From the NCBI GenBank assembly GCA_024180945.1, contig JAKSGN010000007.1:2418001-2482000 (forward strand): a DNA stretch of 64,000 nt. The letters run 5' to 3'. Under the pieces are notes generated by a model. The model searched no databases, had not been told where the DNA came from, and worked only from the letters and a program-made list of their open reading frames with translations. This DNA comes from Macrophomina tecta (taxonomy: Eukaryota > Ascomycota > Dothideomycetes > Botryosphaeriales > Botryosphaeriaceae). Shown here one piece after another: positions 6,291 through 30,826 of this stretch (position 1 is its first letter; each line of letters opens with the position of its first letter). The position numbers and the translations under genes were made by a program.

Positions 6291-7147
6291 TTCGGCAAAC
6301 CCAGTTCCTCCGTCAACACGAATAATGGAGGAGGAAAGGCTTCTTAATGAGTAATGACTTGCTTCTTTTGACCATTTTTCTGATGGATACCTTGGCCGTT
6401 ATTTTTTTTCCCCTCTTTACCTAAATTGTACCGCGGGGGAACGAATGTAGTTGGAATGGATACGGGAAAATTGCATACTGGCAAGAGCCTTGTGGAGGTC
6501 AGTCTCTTCTCCCCATCATACACTTATTTGCGTCTTGCGTTCTGTTCTGTCGCCGTGCCCTCATTTGTACAGTGGCAGTATTTAGGTATTAACGCTATTC
6601 CACTGGCCCTCTGATCCGATTTATGTTGTTGCCAGCCATCTCCCGGAGTTGCGGATTGTTCGCACATAGGGTTGAGGTATGTATCTCAGACTTGATTCCT
6701 CAGACATGACCCGAAGTCACTCCCATACGAATTTCCAAGTCCCAGGACCCGGCCCATTGTCACACTTCGGAGAAAAAGCTCGCCCTATCGGGACACCGTC
6801 GTTCAAGCCTGCAGCATCTGATTGCATCAACTGCTTGGTGCAATGGTACAGCGTAACACTTTCGCAAGCGAGCTGAAGCGCTCACATATTGCAGTGCTCC
6901 GGATGGTGTCGTAGTCAGGTCGGACTTGCGTTGATTTTTCAGCGGGGGCCGTAGACTGGGTGAGTGTGTATAGTTGAGCTTCAAGGATGGCTCAAAAATC
7001 AGTGAACTAGAGTATCATAAGGCTATACCAATTTCTGGTGGCTGGTATTCATATTTCAGGGTTTTTGCCTGCTTATTGTGGCGATAGCGATTTGCCAAAC
7101 TGAAGTCCCTTTATTGCTTTGCGGCTGTTCCAACTTTCACCAAGACA
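6291..7147. other. Intergenic region, 3' flank of sulfotransferase gene and 5' flank of tRNA
   Basis: AT-richer than the preceding kilobases. T-rich segments follow the stop codon. I see no coding or RNA signal before the tRNA gene. Confidence 0.5.
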
Positions 7148-7183
7148 GGCCGGTTAGCGCAATGGTAGAGCGTACCCCTCCTA

Positions 7184-7221
7184 AACTCAGCCGTTCCCGG
7201 TAACGGTTCAGGTTCCTGGAA
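7184..7221 (+). other. Canonical tRNA intron (after position 37)
   Basis: 38 nt between anticodon-loop positions 37 and 38, where all nuclear tRNA introns cut by the Sen endonuclease lie. Owing to an A repeat the edges can shift by one nucleotide. The intron contains GGTTCAGGTTCC, which loosely resembles a B box (GWTCRANNC) and could matter because the normal B box is interrupted; that role is speculative. Confidence 0.75.
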
Positions 7222-7241
7222 AGGGTAAGGCTGCGGGTTCG

Positions 7242-7295
7242 GTACGTATAAGTGACCGCTGGTATTCTGATGATTGTGAGCTAACAAGACTGTAG
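7242..7295 (+). other. 54-nt spliceosomal-type intron in the tRNA T-loop
   Basis: The segment starts GTACGTATAAG, has the branch-point-like GAGCTAACAAG at 7278-7288, and ends CTGTAG. That is the full set of fungal mRNA intron signals, at a normal branch-to-acceptor distance of about 11 nt, and it matches introns of neighbouring protein genes (the S25, NDUFB4 and alpha-galactosidase genes also have GTAC donors). It sits exactly between T-loop positions 57 and 58. Removal restores TTCGAGT and a perfect T stem. The first bases of the insert give GGTTCGGTAC at the junction, so a B box with only the invariant A58 replaced by G remains in the DNA. mRNA-type introns in a Pol III gene are known for U6 snRNA of several fungi; I know of no such intron in a tRNA. 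Confidence 0.7.
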
Positions 7296-7312
7296 AGTCC
7301 CGTATCGGTCGG

Positions 7313-7341
7313 TGTTTCTTTTTCTTTTTCTTTTTCTTTTT
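7313..7341 (+). terminator. Pol III terminator, four T5 runs
   Basis: Immediately after the tRNA discriminator base come T5 runs at 7319-7323, 7325-7329, 7331-7335 and 7337-7341, separated by single C residues. This is a strong, redundant RNA polymerase III stop and supports the tRNA being (or having been) a Pol III gene. Confidence 0.75.
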
Positions 7342-8273
7342 GTTCTTATCATCAAAATCGCTTCTATATTGCGGGATTTAGAACAAATCCTTGGAGGGTT
7401 GAGGGAAACTATCATGGGGACCTTAAACCAACAACCCAGAAAGTCCACGACATCCAGCTTGAATTACTCCACTCTAATCGCCATCCTCACCCTATGCACT
7501 TGCTTCACTCCCACGACAGAGAACAAATGTAGTCGCACCACGCTCACCCTCTACTCTTCTTCCGCAAATCTCAAAAGTCACCTCGATAACGACAGCCCCC
7601 GGCCATAGATCATTCCACACACCCGCTGGTCGTAATCGAGATTTTATGAATTCTAAAATGCTTCTATGCGTTCATTTTTCACCGAACACTCGCCAATCTC
7701 AAGCACCACAGCACTCAACCCAACTAATTCATCACCGATTTCTCAGGCTGCTCGTGGTTCTCACCTCAAAAATTTCACTTCATCGCAACTATCAGCCAAA
7801 AGAAGGATGAAATACGTGCACTAGATTTTTTGGTACACTCATATGGCTTCGGCTGTCAGCATCCAAGTGCAATGGATGGCTGCGGAATAGATTATCCCAT
7901 GGTAATAACTGAGGGGCGTTTTCCTGGGGTGTCAGGCGGAGCTACCGGCTATGGTGAATCTGTGAGATGGGTGAGGGAAGATTTGCGGTGATGGCTGGAG
8001 CAACGATCGGTTGCGAAAAGGTGAAAGCGCCATGCAGGATTTGCTGACAGCGACTTCATCCTCCGAATTAACCTGGCCCGGCTCGCGCATTACACAAAGG
8101 TGTGATACCCTCGGTGGAAAGGGTTAAGGTTCGTCTGATATTCTAGAGAAGAAGTTTCAGGCGCCCGGCTAAGCTGCATGAGTGGTTCTCGGCGCTACTG
8201 AACGTTGGGACCCCCTTGTTTCCTTGATTAGAAGTTACACGCCAGGTTTTTCCATTGTCTCCCGCTCAGCTCA
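7342..8273. other. AT-rich intergenic region
   Basis: No gene recognised. Open frames after the T-rich terminator start inside repetitive sequence and show no motif. Confidence 0.4.
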
Positions 8274-22870: not shown

Positions 22871-23174
22871 ATGGACGTTCTGCTGCGCGCAGTCTGCCCG
22901 AGTCTCTAGTCTCCCGTCCGACGCGGTGTTCAGGCCCATGAAGCGGCCTGCTGCAAGGTAAGTAGCCCACCGCCAGCTCCGGCCTCTCGCCCCGTCAGCA
23001 GCTGCACGCCCTCTTTCTCCGCTGCCCGCCGCCGCCGCGCGCTGCCGAACCAAAGCGACCCCGCTCCTCACCCAGCATCATTCCCTCCAGCCGTCTTTCG
23101 CGCGAACCTCTTTGGTTTTCTTCCACAAACTTCGTTCAAAAGGCTGAGCCCCAGCGCCTGTGCGCGCTGCGCAG
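22871..23174 (+). promoter_or_regulatory. 5' leader with two upstream ORFs and a probable leader intron
   Basis: Upstream of the start at 23181 are two short upstream ORFs: 22871-22909 (12 codons plus stop) and 22938-22961 (7 codons plus stop). The second one runs across a consensus donor (AAG then GTAAGT at 22958). An intron from 22958 to the GCAG at 23171-23174 would leave only six bases before the real start codon and would remove the stop of the second upstream ORF, which would then terminate in the TGA overlapping the start (ATGA). This could couple splicing to translation. Inferred from sequence only. Confidence 0.45.
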
Positions 23175-23180
23175 ACATCC

Positions 23181-26100
23181 ATGACCGCGCCAGCGACTCC
23201 GAAGAGCAAGCCCGCAACGCCTACCGACAAGCAGAAGCCGGCCAAGTCCCCGCTCATTCTAGGCAAGGGCCCGGGTCCCATCGACAATGCCAAAATAAAA
23301 GCCAAGATCGAGAAATGGCAGGCTGCAGGCGGCGGCGCCATCACCGTCGTGGAACCGCCCTCCACGCCGGGGTCTGAGAAGGAGGGCACTACCACGCCAG
23401 CCAAGGATGCGGACAAGGCCGGAGAGAGCGAAGAGAAGGCCGAGGCGGCGGGCGATGGGCAGGCGGTAGCAGGGGCAGCGAATGAGAAGGAGGCCGTGAA
23501 GTCCCCGCCGCCCAAGTCGCCTTCGCCGATTAAGAAGCAGACGCCGAAACTGAAGGCCAACGACCTGGACCAGGAGCTGCAGGCCGCCGTGACCCCGAAG
23601 AAGCGCGTCGTCAGCGACGGGCACTGGCGCAAGAGCAGATCACCGCCGAAGGATAGCAAGCCGACCGGCTGGGTTCGTCCGGCCGTCAAGAAGCCGCCTT
23701 CGGTGCCAAAGCCGGAAGAGAAGGAGGAGCCCAAGAAGAGCCCGCCGAAGATACCCATACTTCCCAAGCCTGTCTTCGCGCCCGACGGGACGAGGGTTGC
23801 GGCTGTGCGGAGGCGGCGGAAGTCGACTGTTTCCAAGAGCAGTGAGGAGGATGAGCCGCCGAAGCTAGCACCAGAGCCAATCAGGAGACCGCAGAGGGAG
23901 GATAGGTTCATGTCCAAGGAAAAGCCGTACGAACCACCCTCGAGCGGCAATCGTGTGAAAGATGCAATCAGAAGGCATGAGGCGCTGGCCCGTGGAGAGA
24001 TTTTGGAGGATGCGCCTGCAAAGAAAAGGTCTGTCCGGAAGACGAAGAGCCATTACGGTGATGGCGACAGGAGGCGCGATGAGAGTCCGAGCGAATCTCC
24101 AGCGCGCGGAGCTCGGTCTGAAGACGAACTTCGAAGAAGGAGGAAGATGAGGCGTCGTCCTACTGATTCTAGGGACGATGTCACGAGCTTGCCACCCGAC
24201 GACGACCGACCGGCAGAGAGGAGACGGAGCCGCCGAAAATCTCACAGAACCCTATCTCCTGAGCCTGGTGAGAAGCCGGTCGTCACGCAGTCTGCTCCCG
24301 TCACTCCTCAGCCCGCCACTCCGACCACAGCAGAGAACCCAGACACCTCGACGGAGAAGGTGTTCGGCAGCCGTGTGGAGGCATGGCTGTCCAGCACGCC
24401 GGATCCGTTTGTTGAGGGGAAAGATGGCAAGGACAAGGAAAGGCGGAGAAGTTCGAGGCGTTCATCGTCAAGTACAGAAGGTTCGACGCTGCTTTCTGAA
24501 GATAAACGTGTCGAAAAGGACGCTGGGAAGCCACAAGAACCACCATCACCTCGCCATGGCAGCAGCAAGAGACGGAAGCACCGCCGAAGGTCCTATGACA
24601 GCCAAGACGAATCGGTCCTGTCCGACGACAGGCATAGGAGAAGATCGTCAATCACTGCTTCGCATGATGAAGAAAACCTCATTACGGTGGAATACGATGA
24701 GTCTTCGACGATCGTGTCTACTTCTACGGCGTCTTCACTCAAGCGTAGGCCAGCGCGCCGAGCTTCTGAGTCGCCAACAAAGGGCCGTCCGTCTCCAGTG
24801 CCGGCAACAATTCCAGAGGATGAAGCCGTCCCGTCGGTTGCAAGCTCTTCCGTTGATGCATCGAAGGCCGATTTTCCAGATATGACGCCCCGTCCTCGAA
24901 ATTCCACCCGACGCGAGTTCCCGACAGTGGGCAGGAAGCTATCGACGATCGCATCGGTGGAGACCTTCGATTCCAAGCGGAAGCCCTCGAGGACAGTTTC
25001 CCAGGGATCTGACAATACCATTACCCCGGAAGACGCTATCAAAGATGACCCACCAGGTGACGACTCTGGAAAACCTGCAGATGCCATGTCCATAATGACG
25101 GGGATGACTGGGATGACTGCTCGGAGCAGGAATAGCACAAGGCGGCGTCTCGCTTCCCATGCAGACCTCATTTCTGTCCTGTCCATGCCAGAGCGCACCA
25201 ACTCGAAGAGCAAGAGTCTTGTGTCTGCGCGTAGCATACGCACGAACAAGAGCAGACTGGCCACCGCGACTATTGAAGACCTAATGAGCGAGCTGCAGTC
25301 TGACGAGTCCAAGTACATGCGCGAGCTGCGGACATTGGTCGATGGGGTTATTCCGGTCCTCCTTACTTGCGTGCTGTCAAAATCCGAGTCCGCTGTTACA
25401 GCTGGACTCTTCAGCAAGACAGGAGCTCCGGGTGAGAGCACCAAGATCACGAAGCCGATTGTCGAGATGGGTGTTGCTCTTGAGCGTCTCAAGACTCTGC
25501 ACAAACGCATTCCCAAGTCTGACCCGGAGGCCCTGTTGTCGTGGGCGCAAAGTGCACAGAGAGTTTACAGTGATTACGTCAAGTCTTGGAGGCTAGGCTT
25601 CCAAGACGTCGTCGTAAACCTTGCACCTGCAAGTGACGAAGATAAGCCTGACAAGAAAGAAGATCAAGCAGATGCTGAGTCAACAATCGATGAAGGCATG
25701 CCACGCAATGAAGAGGGCTATGTAGTCAATGGTGACGGCGAAAGAGTCGACGTAGCCTTCCTCCTCAAAAGGCCGCTCGTGCGTCTCAAATACCTCTCGA
25801 AGACCTTCAAGGGAATCAACATCCTCAAGCCATCCGACCGAGCAAACGACATGGCCGCGAGGTATCAAGAACTGGTCACTCAAGCCCGCAAGCGATCAAA
25901 CGAAGAACGAGCGCGCCTGGAGGACGAAGCCGCTGCTAGCATAGACCCGACGCGAGCTAGAGACCCGCGGAGCTTGGCTCCTCTTGCTGGTGTCAGCATC
26001 GACGCCACACGATGCGTGCGCGCCAGAGATTATTTCGATATGACGCTTCTGCACTCGAGTGGTCAGGAAGTCGATTGCAGAGTCGAGCTGTTGATCCGCG

Positions 26101-29004
26101 ATGACGCGCCTGGACGTGGAAATAGCGGGGATCTTCTCCTATGTGAAGTGGACAGTACAGGCCGCTGGCTGTTCTTCCCGCCCATTCAGCTCAGCCGCGT
26201 GTCAGCCCGCAATGGAGATCTTAAGGGTGAGATTGTCGTTATGATTCGCGGACTCACCTCAGGTGGTCAGGAATGGCGGGAGCTAGTCACATTGAGAACC
26301 AACGACGAAGAGGTGGGCTTTGAATGGGTGCAGATGCTAGGGCTTGTCCCTGTCCCTGACAAGGTTTCGAGGGGGCTGAGCTTCCGCGAGAAGTCAGCAC
26401 CAAGACCTACAAGCAGTCATGCGTCCTCCTCTCTGTTATCCGCTGGAACCGGGTCTACACCGCCAATCAAGAGCAGAACACCAAGCCCTCGGGAGATCGA
26501 GATTCCAATGGGTGAAAGAGCAGGCGACTCGTCAAGGAAATGGGGCCGCGAGACTCCGGAGCAACCCAGACCAATGTCTCCAGAAACGCCTGCAAGTTCT
26601 GTGCTGAGCAGCGAAGTCGGCACTCTTGGCTCAGCACTGAGCTCTGACGTGTTGTCGTCCGACATTACGGATCACGACGAGCTTACCCCACGCAAGACGC
26701 GCCCACCGCCCCTGCAGCCCTCGTCAACAACTTGGACCGACGCGATGGCTAAGGCTGACAGCCCGACAACTCCGACACTGAAGCGGTCCAAGGCCAAGAG
26801 GTACTCGCGGGGTGACCCCCGTCCGCCAAGGGGTTCCAGGGATTCGAGCTTGGATCAAGAGCAAGTTACCCCAGAACGGCAGACGTCACGGCCAGCATTG
26901 ACCTCTGAGCCTTCATATGCAACCAACTCATCGTCTCTGACTTATAGCTCGTATACATCTTCTTCTACGGAAAGGGGCGGCACCGGAGGCTATAGTGTCT
27001 GGTATCCCCCGTCCGAGCCAGAAGATCTCAGCGATTACTCGGATGAAGAGGATACGCCGCTGCCTCGCCGCACACTTACAAAGCGCCCTCCTACCCAGCG
27101 GCGCACCTCTTCTGTACCCTCAATTGATCTTCCGACAATCCCGAGGTTGCGCAAGTTCAGTCAGCCAGAGACATCTACAAGGGCAGACGTGCGCGACAAC
27201 GAGATGCGCTCGGAGTCGCTGCCTATCCATACTCCGTCTTCGAGACCAGCAAAATTGCAGAAGAGGCCTCCAGTCATGGATGAGGAGCCCCTGCCAGAGA
27301 TGGAAGATGTGCCTCCTCCACCTCCCCCCCACCGCACACCAAGCCCTGTCAACAATACCCCCCCGTTGAAGATAACGCCTCCGGCCAATTTCAGCCCGCC
27401 AGCACCAGGCTTCCGGCAACACCGACGTACTTCTTCCCCGTTGAAGCACGAATACCAGCCGTCGACATGCACAGAGTCTTCCGGCGATGACAGTGAGCTC
27501 TCTTTCTCTGATGACGTCGGCTCCGCCTATTCAGAGTCTTCGGAGGATGACCTCGAAGCTGATGATGTTGCTCCCCTGGGACCGCTTCCCCCAATGGATC
27601 CAAGGCGCCAATTTCCCCGTCCTTCACCACCACAATCATCGTATGAGCCTGGAACTGCCACCCTCAGCCCGTCTCAATCTGCTTCTCAAGCCCCCTATAG
27701 GACCGTTCCGCAATATTCTACCAAGCCCAACAAGACAATTGCAAACATTTTTGCGTGGTCAGAGAACGGTATGTGGGATGTTCTCCATCCTGACGAGTGC
27801 AGCATAGTCATCACACCCGGCTTGATCGAGGCATTTGAGATGGGCCCGGAGCACTCGAACAATTTTGCGCCTGAAGAGGAACAGAATAAGAGGCCGCTTA
27901 TCGCTTTCGAGCTTACACCACTTGTTCCTCTTCGCCGGGGAACAGCTTTGGACATATCCATCCGCTCGCCGCCGACTCCGAATTCTAGGATCCGTACAAG
28001 CGCTAACATTATGTTCCGCTCGCGCTCTCCTGAAGAATGCGAGGCCCTCTACAATCTGATCAATAAGGCTCGCATTAACAACCCCACGTACATTGCCCTT
28101 CAAAATGCTCGCGGGCCACATGGAGAAGATACCTGGGCAGCCGCTATGGACCGTCGTAACGCCGAGCGTACGGAGGGAAGCACGAGCGGAGGAAGCAGCT
28201 GGTGGGGCAGTCTCGGCCGCAGGAACAGCTACCGTGCCAAGACCTCTCGTGCCATCAGCACGTCAGCTGGGACTACAAGCAGCGTCAACACTATCGGCAG
28301 CGCTTTCTCGGCCCTCAAACGATTTAGTGGCACTGGCAAGTTGTTCAGTAGTGCGAGGGGCAGCATGTACTCCTCGAACCCGGACAGCCGCAGCCGCAGT
28401 ACCGATTCGCTGAACGGCGAAGTTGAAACAAGCTCCGGTACTTCACCACGCCTCCCTACTACGGATGACCCGACTCATGATGCCCAAGGCATGCCTCTCG
28501 GCATCATGAACACGAAGATCAGACTGTATGCGCGCGAATCTCAGCAGAAATGGCGCGACATGGGTGCGGCAAGATTGTCCATCATGCGTCCCTCGCGACC
28601 TTCATCACCAGGCGCCAATCCGTACGTTAGACAAGGACAGGGCAGCCCCGGCCAACGCAACCCGGAAGCAGAGAAGCGCATCGTTGTTCTTGGGAAGACG
28701 AGGGGCGAGACCCTTCTTGACGTTACCCTCGGCGAGAGTTGCTTCGAGAGAGTGGCTAGAACGGGTATTGCGGTCAGCGTGTGGGAGGACACGGTTGGCA
28801 CTAATGAGGAGGTTGGTGGCATTCCTGCGATTGGTGGTGTGGCGGGGACGAAGGCGAGGGTGTATATGATTCAGGTAAGTTACCCCTTCTTTTTGCCGTC
28901 GTTGTTTCAGGAGCCTCTTCGATGTATTAACAGCTTCCCTACAGATGAAGTCGGAACGCGAATGCGCTTATTGCTTCTCCCTGCTCGGGAAGCTACGGTA
29001 CTAA
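23181..29004 (+). CDS. Very large DH/PH-like scaffold protein
   Basis: Two exons, 23181-28874 and 28945-29004, give about 1917 residues. The first 690 residues are disordered, basic, Ser/Pro/Arg-rich, with many SRR and RRRS runs, which is why such fungal proteins are often labelled SRm160/300-like. A helical domain beginning ATIEDLMSELQSDESKYMRE (about residue 695) resembles a RhoGEF DH domain, and SIDATRCVRARDYFDMTLLH to EVGFEWVQMLGLVP a PH-like domain. A second PH-like module (KTIANIFAWSENGMWDVLHP to LYNLINKARINNP) lies near residue 1520. After the single phase-0 intron the tail reads MKSERECAYCFSLLGKLRY. A role in Rho-type GTPase signalling or as a cortical scaffold is an inference. The long frame continues past the donor, which explains a misleading longer reading frame to 29204. 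Confidence 0.85.
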
Positions 29005-30826
29005 GCGACCCAGCATGGATAGTGTACAGCGCAGCACCGGCCGCTACCTTTCTCCTCGTAGCTTCCGAGTTTGTTCAACTCTGGGCGCTGGGTTTCATGC
29101 GTTTCGCGGCGGCTACTATGCATAAGGGACCGCGGCATGAATTTGTTTGTTGCTTCATCCATGCGGACGCGCTCTTCCTTGGTTTTTCTGACACAGCACC
29201 CTGACCACTGGGGTTCTTGTGTCGTTACGGCTCGCCGTCATCCTTTCTCTTTCTCACCACGAAACACCGGCGTGATAATGCGGGCACACACTAGTCGGAT
29301 TTGTCTGATCGCCTTTTTTTTTTTCCCCTCTCTTCCCGATAGAGCCTTTTTTCCTCGTCTTATTTCTCCGGCATGGCACTTCCGATATTGCATAGCCGTT
29401 TCCGACCGTTTCCTTTTGCATAGCAACAGTAAGGCAGTAACTTTTCCGTGTGATGTTTTCGGATGAGATCACTTACACATAGATTCTCTTCTTTGTCTTT
29501 TTTTTTTTTTTTTTTTTTTGCCTTTTTAATGGCGAATGTCCTTAGCGAGCAAGGGGTTCGTGGCTTTGTTTTGTCTCTTTTGTAAGCATTGCGAAGCGGT
29601 ATCTATCTGGTGGGGGGCATACATCATGGGTAGGCATGCATGCACACATTTGGAGGAAAGTGATGAGCAAGTAAGTGGTGGAGCATGTGATGAAGTCGAA
29701 GAGCGTATGTGGTAATGATTGTTTTGATCATTATTGTTTGTTTCGTTCGTGGTTCTCATGTTGCGATATCCAATATGTTTTTTTTTTTTTTTTTTGGCTT
29801 TAGGTTTCGTTTTCTCCGTAATACACATGATATGCGGGTTCCATTTCTTTTTCTTTCATGTCTCGCTTGTGTGTTTGTCTGTGGTGTAAGTCGCTCGCGG
29901 CTTTGGGTTTGGCGGCGTTTTCGTTCGGCTCGTGTTCTTTTCGTCGTGCATGTGTGGTGGCTGAGTGCACGCAATTGGGATGCTGAATCGCGTTGCGTGG
30001 AGAGGCGTTGAAGTGATTTAAATAGCCGAAGCGTCCTTAATAAGCGGGTGGTAATATGTGGCTGCTTAATCGCCTGGGATATACTGGAGATATGGGAAAT
30101 ACAAAGTGGTTTGCCTCAACCCCGCTATGGGAGCTTCCGCTTGACGCGCTGAATACACGCCCGACGATGAAACCAGCACAGCTATGAACGAGTCTCTCGC
30201 ATCCTCGTTATTACGACAGATTTTTCTTGTAGGAAGAGAAGCAACTCCTAAGACCAATTTTGAATGCAGGTATGCTGGGCGTTTGGCGGAAGCTCATTTA
30301 AAAATTTCCCCGAAATGAGTACCTGGCGGAGACTATGATCTTCCGTGTTCTGATTGGCTCCGCGGTGGTGAAATTTGCAGGTTTCGCCTCTTTCTTTCCC
30401 TTTTTTTTTAAAAAGTTTATTTTTTTATTATTATTTTTTTTTTTTTTGGCGTTTAGCTGCGCAGCTCCCTGTTTGATGAAAGGTAATTCCACCGCGACGT
30501 TCGACGGAGGCAATCTCTTCTTAGTCATCGCATCTCCTGCTCATTTTGCTGCGACGTTCGATGGTGAGGCAGCGATGATGGTGAGTGGTTGCTGCGGAGA
30601 CTGATTGCGATCTGTTAGGGCTGACCTATTATTTCTAGCCGAACGTCAATCTCATTTGTGATGATCGGCGGGATTTGTGGAGGTCAGTGGGATCGGTATT
30701 GGATTTTTATCTTCCTTTTTTGTTCGACTGGACGGAGGGATTAGGTGGTAGCTCGAAATTTCTTATTTGCTTGTATACGAGTGGATCATGATCGACTGCT
30801 GCCGAGCCAATTGGTCGGGTGGGCAG

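Follow-up and report, generated by a model that had tools for sequence, protein, structure and literature searches.

In the fungal genome analysed here, at least 11 nuclear tRNA genes, representing six isoacceptors, are split by 12 introns of spliceosomal type in all (the count refers to a single 54-Mb assembly and is a minimum). One of these genes occupies positions 7148-7311 of the window, that is, of the whole 64,000-nucleotide stretch of DNA analysed. We are highly confident that this locus is a tRNA-Arg(CCU) gene of the nuclear genome, a probable RNA polymerase III (Pol III) transcription unit with an ordinary anticodon-loop intron and, in its T-loop, a U2-type spliceosomal intron, and that it is one of a genome-wide set. 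The 12 introns are very probably removed by the spliceosome, in addition to Sen-type splicing of the canonical ones, because they share a common set of signals, because the initiator-Met genes found are all split, and because the empty sites in tRNA-Pro(AGG) are exact (88 of 88 nucleotides). On this sequence evidence, the machinery that splices mRNA appears to be needed to make these tRNAs, and probably for protein synthesis to start at all.

All features of the window gene lie on the + strand. Once 7184-7221 and 7242-7295 are cut out, exons 7148-7183, 7222-7241 and 7296-7311 join to form a 72-nt tRNA-Arg(CCU) according to ARAGORN; the first-pass annotation had proposed the same three blocks and was right to the base. 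Exon 1 (7148-7183) supplies tRNA positions 1-37, as judged by ARAGORN on the joined sequence and by alignment with the intact paralog sequence shared by loci L040 and L041, and the A-box region at about 7155-7165 is unbroken within it. It is followed by a canonical, Sen-type intron of 38 nt (7184-7221) between positions 37 and 38, which ARAGORN reports as i(37,38), still with the call tRNA-Arg(CCU), when 7242-7295 alone is removed. Exon 2 (7222-7241), assigned by ARAGORN to positions 38-57, includes GGTTCG, with which the B box begins on its 5′ side, and exon 3 (7296-7311), likewise placed by ARAGORN, covers positions 58-73, discriminator base included.

The 54-nt insert between T-loop positions 57 and 58 (7242-7295) is classed as a spliceosomal-type intron by its GT...AG ends and YTRAY branch site at the exact tRNA boundary, and the same site is split in a tRNA-Pro(AGG) gene (L205). 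It opens with the 5′ splice site GTACGT (7242-7247) and closes with the 3′ splice site TAG (7293-7295). A motif scan places a CTAAC branch-site motif at 7281-7285, with the presumed branch A at 7284 (-12), and a second YTRAY match, CTGAT, at -26. Donor, branch motif and acceptor had all been named in the first-pass annotation. The joined tRNA forms 20 of its 21 base pairs; a single D-stem mismatch (12-22) is absent from the intact CCU paralogs. Downstream, a T5 tract scan locates T-tracts at 7319-7341, a presumed Pol III terminator, the TTTTT tract beginning at +8 past the gene. With 7242-7295 retained, ARAGORN finds no tRNA at the locus, a scan of the whole 64-kb window gives none either, and no tRNA is detected at the locus by Rfam scans of the window at the gathering threshold or of 6800-7500 with E up to 10.

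The window is part of contig C7 in a 54.1-Mb assembly of 37 contigs. It also encodes, at 23160-29204, a protein with DH and PH domains, residues 690-1100 of which are 100% identical to the protein of Macrophomina phaseolina MS6 (next best match, 95%); that MS6 protein maps onto the window with 99% identity across 1911 residues. These matches place the genome in Macrophomina (Dothideomycetes) or a very near relation of it. Upstream of the tRNA gene, at 6840-6857, is a D-arm-like stretch (gcaatggtacagcg), possibly a tRNA remnant.

Several comparisons bear on whether the T-loop insert could have arisen by chance. Its ends can be written in two equivalent placements, a single one of which yields GT...AG together with a YTRAY branch site and a G at +5; shuffled versions of the insert match this combination in 19 of 60,000 cases. 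When 431 mRNA-intron-like segments on both strands of the window were deleted one at a time, one junction-spanning tRNA was made, by the deletion of 7242-7295, and the same procedure on the reversed window gave none (0 of 662). Strict splice motifs by themselves are hardly enriched, numbering 10 in the window and 7 in reversed controls. The telling feature of the splice signals is their place at the tRNA boundary, not their rarity.

The split genes comprise four for initiator Met, three for Ala(AGC) and one each for Arg(CCU), Arg(UCU), Phe(GAA) and Pro(AGG), the last with two introns, and they are interrupted at five sites (11/12, 19/20, 24/25, 30/31 and 57/58). The initiator-Met genes form the largest group. 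Two sub-threshold tRNA matches proved to be genes split in the D-arm, with GTAAGT...CTAAC...TAG and GTAAGA...CTGAC...TAG, and a query with the joined sequence finds four loci, each of them interrupted at 24/25. An exact 13-mer from the initiator anticodon arm has four matches in the assembly, all at split loci (control pattern, 0), and neither the joined-sequence query nor the 13-mer found an unsplit initiator-Met gene in the assembly. Judged by eye, the four introns (55-58 nt) are dissimilar outside their splice signals, and the acceptor and T stems of the copy on contig C35 are altered yet paired. The sole nuclear Arg(UCU) locus found is split at 11/12, leaving an exon 1 of only 11 nt.

Other isoacceptors are represented by both split and intact copies. 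Three of the six Ala(AGC) genes found are split at 19/20, and the other three show the empty site. One Phe(GAA) gene is split at 30/31, with empty-site copies at L019 and L024. The Pro(AGG) gene L205 is interrupted twice, once at 19/20 and once at 57/58, the latter being the exact site used in the window gene. Removal of its two GT-AG inserts, of 53 and 52 nt, yields the sequence of three intact copies at 88 of 88 nucleotides, a 16-nt canonical intron included; with junctions this exact, coincidence or an assembly error can hardly account for the split/intact pair.

Two of these families have further elements nearby. A few bases past five of the six Ala(AGC) genes (L149, L150, L152, L153 and L156), and before the T-tract, stands a second T-arm-like element (for example CTGGTTCAAATCCAG or CTGGTTAGATTCCAG), which may be an additional B box or a hairpin used in processing. 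A related hairpin-like element of the form CCAG/CAGT...CTGG lies downstream of three Phe genes (L019, L024 and L025).

The inventory of split genes is incomplete, since 63 of 1323 candidates from the Rfam tRNA family search were scored. In pattern searches, a B-box pattern gave 122 matches against 110 for its control (70 regions examined), and a pattern joining the A box to GTANG gave 53 against 54, with no excess, although one new split gene, L205, came from its 17 scanned regions, 12 of which were read. A query with the Pro sequence lists the three intact copies and misses the split L205, so that copy counts are lower bounds. A 1038-nt query made of 14 yeast-like tRNAs had no match and was uninformative. 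ARAGORN gave 73 merged calls in the nuclear loci fetched, some with doubtful isotype. Five of them are mis-calls of split genes (L003, L081, L091, L152 and L025) as other isotypes (Cys, Arg, Ile), among them a split initiator-Met gene called Cys(aca). Less these mis-calls, and with the three intact Pro genes added, about 70 tRNA genes without spliceosomal-type introns accompany the 11 that are split. Split genes are thus overlooked or mis-called by standard tRNA finders, and their annotation is unreliable.

Some candidates were rejected. The T-loop-split pattern has ten matches in viral contigs, none of them tRNA-like on reading, and the split initiator-Met pattern has 5 viral and 34 bacterial or archaeal matches, with an initiator anticodon loop near none of the 39. 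Truncated Gly(GCC) (L088) and Asp(GUC) (L113) sequences have intact 3′ parts and mismatched 5′ ends, with no 5′ exon in the available stretch. Repeats of other kinds were also encountered. A dispersed, SINE-like tRNA-like repeat ending in ggtcaccGGTTCGAGTCCcgggtg is present at L080, L093, L140 and L142. One sequence block, probably a subtelomeric repeat, recurs near contig ends (L079, L090, L106, L107, L135, L137, L138 and L139), mostly about 2.6 kb from the end (about 6.4 kb at L137 and 1.1 kb at L138). At L211 and L214, and at L212 and L213, GTAAGT-like and CTAATA-like motifs recur in short tandem-like arrays; those on contigs C10 and C21 are alike, and that on C18 is different.

The introns of the set share one architecture. 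All 12 start with GT, have G at +5 and a YTRAY motif with its A at -11 to -13, end in AG and measure 52-58 nt; mRNA introns in such fungi are typically 50-60 nt long. All 12 boundaries coincide with those fixed by tRNA structure or by paralogs, and shuffling reproduces the signal set in 0 to 19 of 60,000 trials per intron. The preceding base is G in 11 of 12 cases. Acceptors are TAG (five), CAG (five), AAG and GAG (one each), and the Ala copy on contig C3 has a CAG a few bases ahead of its AAG acceptor. A T5 tract begins no more than 60 nt downstream of every split gene (11/11), against a background of 233 in 5000 random positions on the + strand of the window. None of the 12 introns contains a T5 tract, but with 0.48 expected this absence is uninformative.

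Nine of the 12 introns (four at 19/20, four at 24/25 and one at 30/31) resemble canonical introns in being placed after the A box and before the B box. In the window gene and in Pro(AGG) an intron interrupts the B box, and in Arg(UCU) the A box; both boxes are whole in the other eight split genes. The genes with an interrupted box may be transcribed weakly or may rely on a substitute. No significant substitute B box was found in the introns, in four stretches with shuffle p values of 0.06-0.13 or in the window T-loop intron alone (p 1.0). U6 is itself a Pol III gene, and the single U6 gene found in this genome is a full-length match with no intron.

How else might such inserts be explained? 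In archaea and some red algae, ectopic tRNA introns are removed by way of bulge-helix-bulge (BHB) structures, and the tRNA splicing endonuclease could conceivably treat the present inserts in the same way. This genome has abundant canonical introns, in many of the tRNA families seen, and presumably therefore Sen as well, and a crude test allows a 4-bp BHB-like helix in five of the 12 introns. By that test, however, the window insert 7242-7295 has no 4-bp central helix, and neither helix tested is found in the four initiator-Met introns or the two Pro inserts; moreover, spliceosomal signals are common to all inserts, every one with a GT start and an AG end, which makes BHB-mediated removal extremely improbable. 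Pol II transcripts are the usual setting for spliceosomal introns, and the inserts might instead serve longer Pol II transcripts that cross the tRNA genes, no tRNA being made from the spliced product. Such a view is hard to square with a removal that restores the tRNA exactly in the 11 genes, with T5 tracts after each of them, or with the finding of no other initiator-Met source in the assembly, and we consider it highly improbable. The first-pass annotation had offered an introner-like insertion as one possibility, and mobile introns spreading through the genome, with tRNA genes as incidental targets, would account for the similar lengths of the introns and for Pro(AGG), where a precise gain or loss, recent by all appearances, has left the exons identical. 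Three of the 66 intron pairs do exceed a z of 2.5 (highest 3.5), but the other 63 do not, so that 66 comparisons among the tRNA introns yield no clearly related pair. A 261-nt query spanning the window locus matches itself alone in the assembly, with no second copy. The introner suggestion thus finds no support in this set, and we think it unlikely. The other reading in the first-pass annotation, a spliceosomal intron in a tRNA gene that would need two splicing machineries to mature, gains strong support at the level of sequence from the ten other split genes, the exact empty sites and the fact that no initiator-Met gene found is unsplit.

A different objection concerns the window copy alone. 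The first-pass annotation implied that the CCU gene is unique, and a blast search with the joined tRNA, which matched its own locus alone, suggested as much; this was refuted by three intact tRNA-Arg(CCU) genes found by the Rfam tRNA search and ARAGORN, L040 and L041 on contig C3 and L042 on the 33-kb contig C34, where the printed sequence is that of L041. Given these paralogs, the window copy may be dispensable, and it could be a decaying spare, silent because its B box is split, while the intact genes do the work. The D-stem mismatch and the lack of a significant substitute B box agree with decay. Against it, the splice signals of the window gene are intact, a T-tract follows it, and the same 57/58 site is split in Pro(AGG). 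The window tRNA differs from its intact paralogs at 13 of 72 positions, in the T stem (GCGGG) and anticodon stem (TACCC) among others; yet three pairs are altered on both sides and still paired, three acceptor pairs are altered on one side and still paired, and one D-stem pair is lost, so that 20 of 21 pairs form with three two-sided compensations. This substitution pattern is what would be expected of a paralog that is functional now or was until recently. Decay would also leave the split initiator-Met genes unexplained. We therefore regard a silent window copy as somewhat unlikely, and decay of this copy alone, if it has occurred, leaves the general finding untouched.

Under spliceosomal removal, the reading we prefer, the Pol III transcript would be a mini-gene for two splicing systems. 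U1 and U2 would recognise it through GTRNGT-like and CTAAC-like signals, and the spliceosome would take out the T-loop or D-arm intron first, in the nucleus. The tRNA body could then fold, its ends would be trimmed, and the Sen endonuclease would recognise it and excise the canonical intron. Spliceosomal removal should come first because a T-loop or D-arm intron blocks the fold needed by the end-processing enzymes and by Sen. In the intact Pro copies the canonical intron is still present and both spliceosomal ones are missing; if these were lost via a processed RNA, that RNA had passed the spliceosome and not Sen, which fits the proposed order. A gain of introns in L205 is, however, equally possible. 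The sequence itself establishes the anatomy, the exact boundaries, the recurrence, the empty sites, the T-tracts downstream and, among the genes found, the lack of any unsplit initiator-Met gene; Pol III transcription, spliceosomal removal, the order of the steps and the production of a working tRNA from the window copy are inferences from it.

It is likely, in our judgement, that translation in this fungal lineage is directly spliceosome-dependent, through every initiator-Met and Arg(UCU) tRNA, that introns have been gained or lost at recurrent sites after G19 and G57, and that these introns constitute a further class of nuclear tRNA intron. If so, translation initiation would be coupled to spliceosome activity via the initiator-Met genes, and the spliceosome would work on very short, presumably uncapped and highly structured transcripts. 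Paralogs with exact empty sites within one genome also offer a clean setting for the study of intron gain and loss.

To our knowledge, the nuclear tRNA introns of fungi form one class, removed by Sen and ligase. Spliceosomal introns within tRNA genes are not reported in the literature searched, which was judged on titles and the openings of abstracts and largely excludes subscription papers and preprints; in the available part of the 2012 M. phaseolina genome paper, "tRNA" appears once, as a tRNAscan-SE step. What is described here is a known kind of intron in host genes unreported as far as that literature goes, on which an essential tRNA unexpectedly appears to depend for its removal by the spliceosome. 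The closest parallels are the introns of fungal U6 snRNA and U3 snoRNA genes, likewise mRNA-type spliceosomal introns within genes for small structured RNAs; one study names U3 and U6 as the sole small structured RNAs in which interruption by an intron is known to be frequent (PMC5832005). The hosts here are instead tRNA genes, at several sites and in several isoacceptors, and the U6 gene of this genome is without an intron. Spliceosomal introns in non-coding genes outside Pol II transcription are also found in the rDNA of lichen-forming ascomycetes, and yeast spliced one of them out of Pol I transcripts (PMC8527467). Those are Pol I rRNA genes, whereas here the introns lie in tRNA genes and interrupt promoter boxes or stems in an RNA of 72 nt. 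Canonical tRNA introns, handled by the Sen endonuclease and ligase at 37/38, are represented in the window gene itself by 7184-7221, from which 7242-7295 differs in position, in signals and presumably in machinery. Finally, archaea and red algae have ectopic and permuted tRNA introns which, like the present ones, interrupt tRNA genes outside the anticodon loop (PMC4090602). Those introns rely on BHB structures, whereas the inserts described here carry GT, a branch site and AG.
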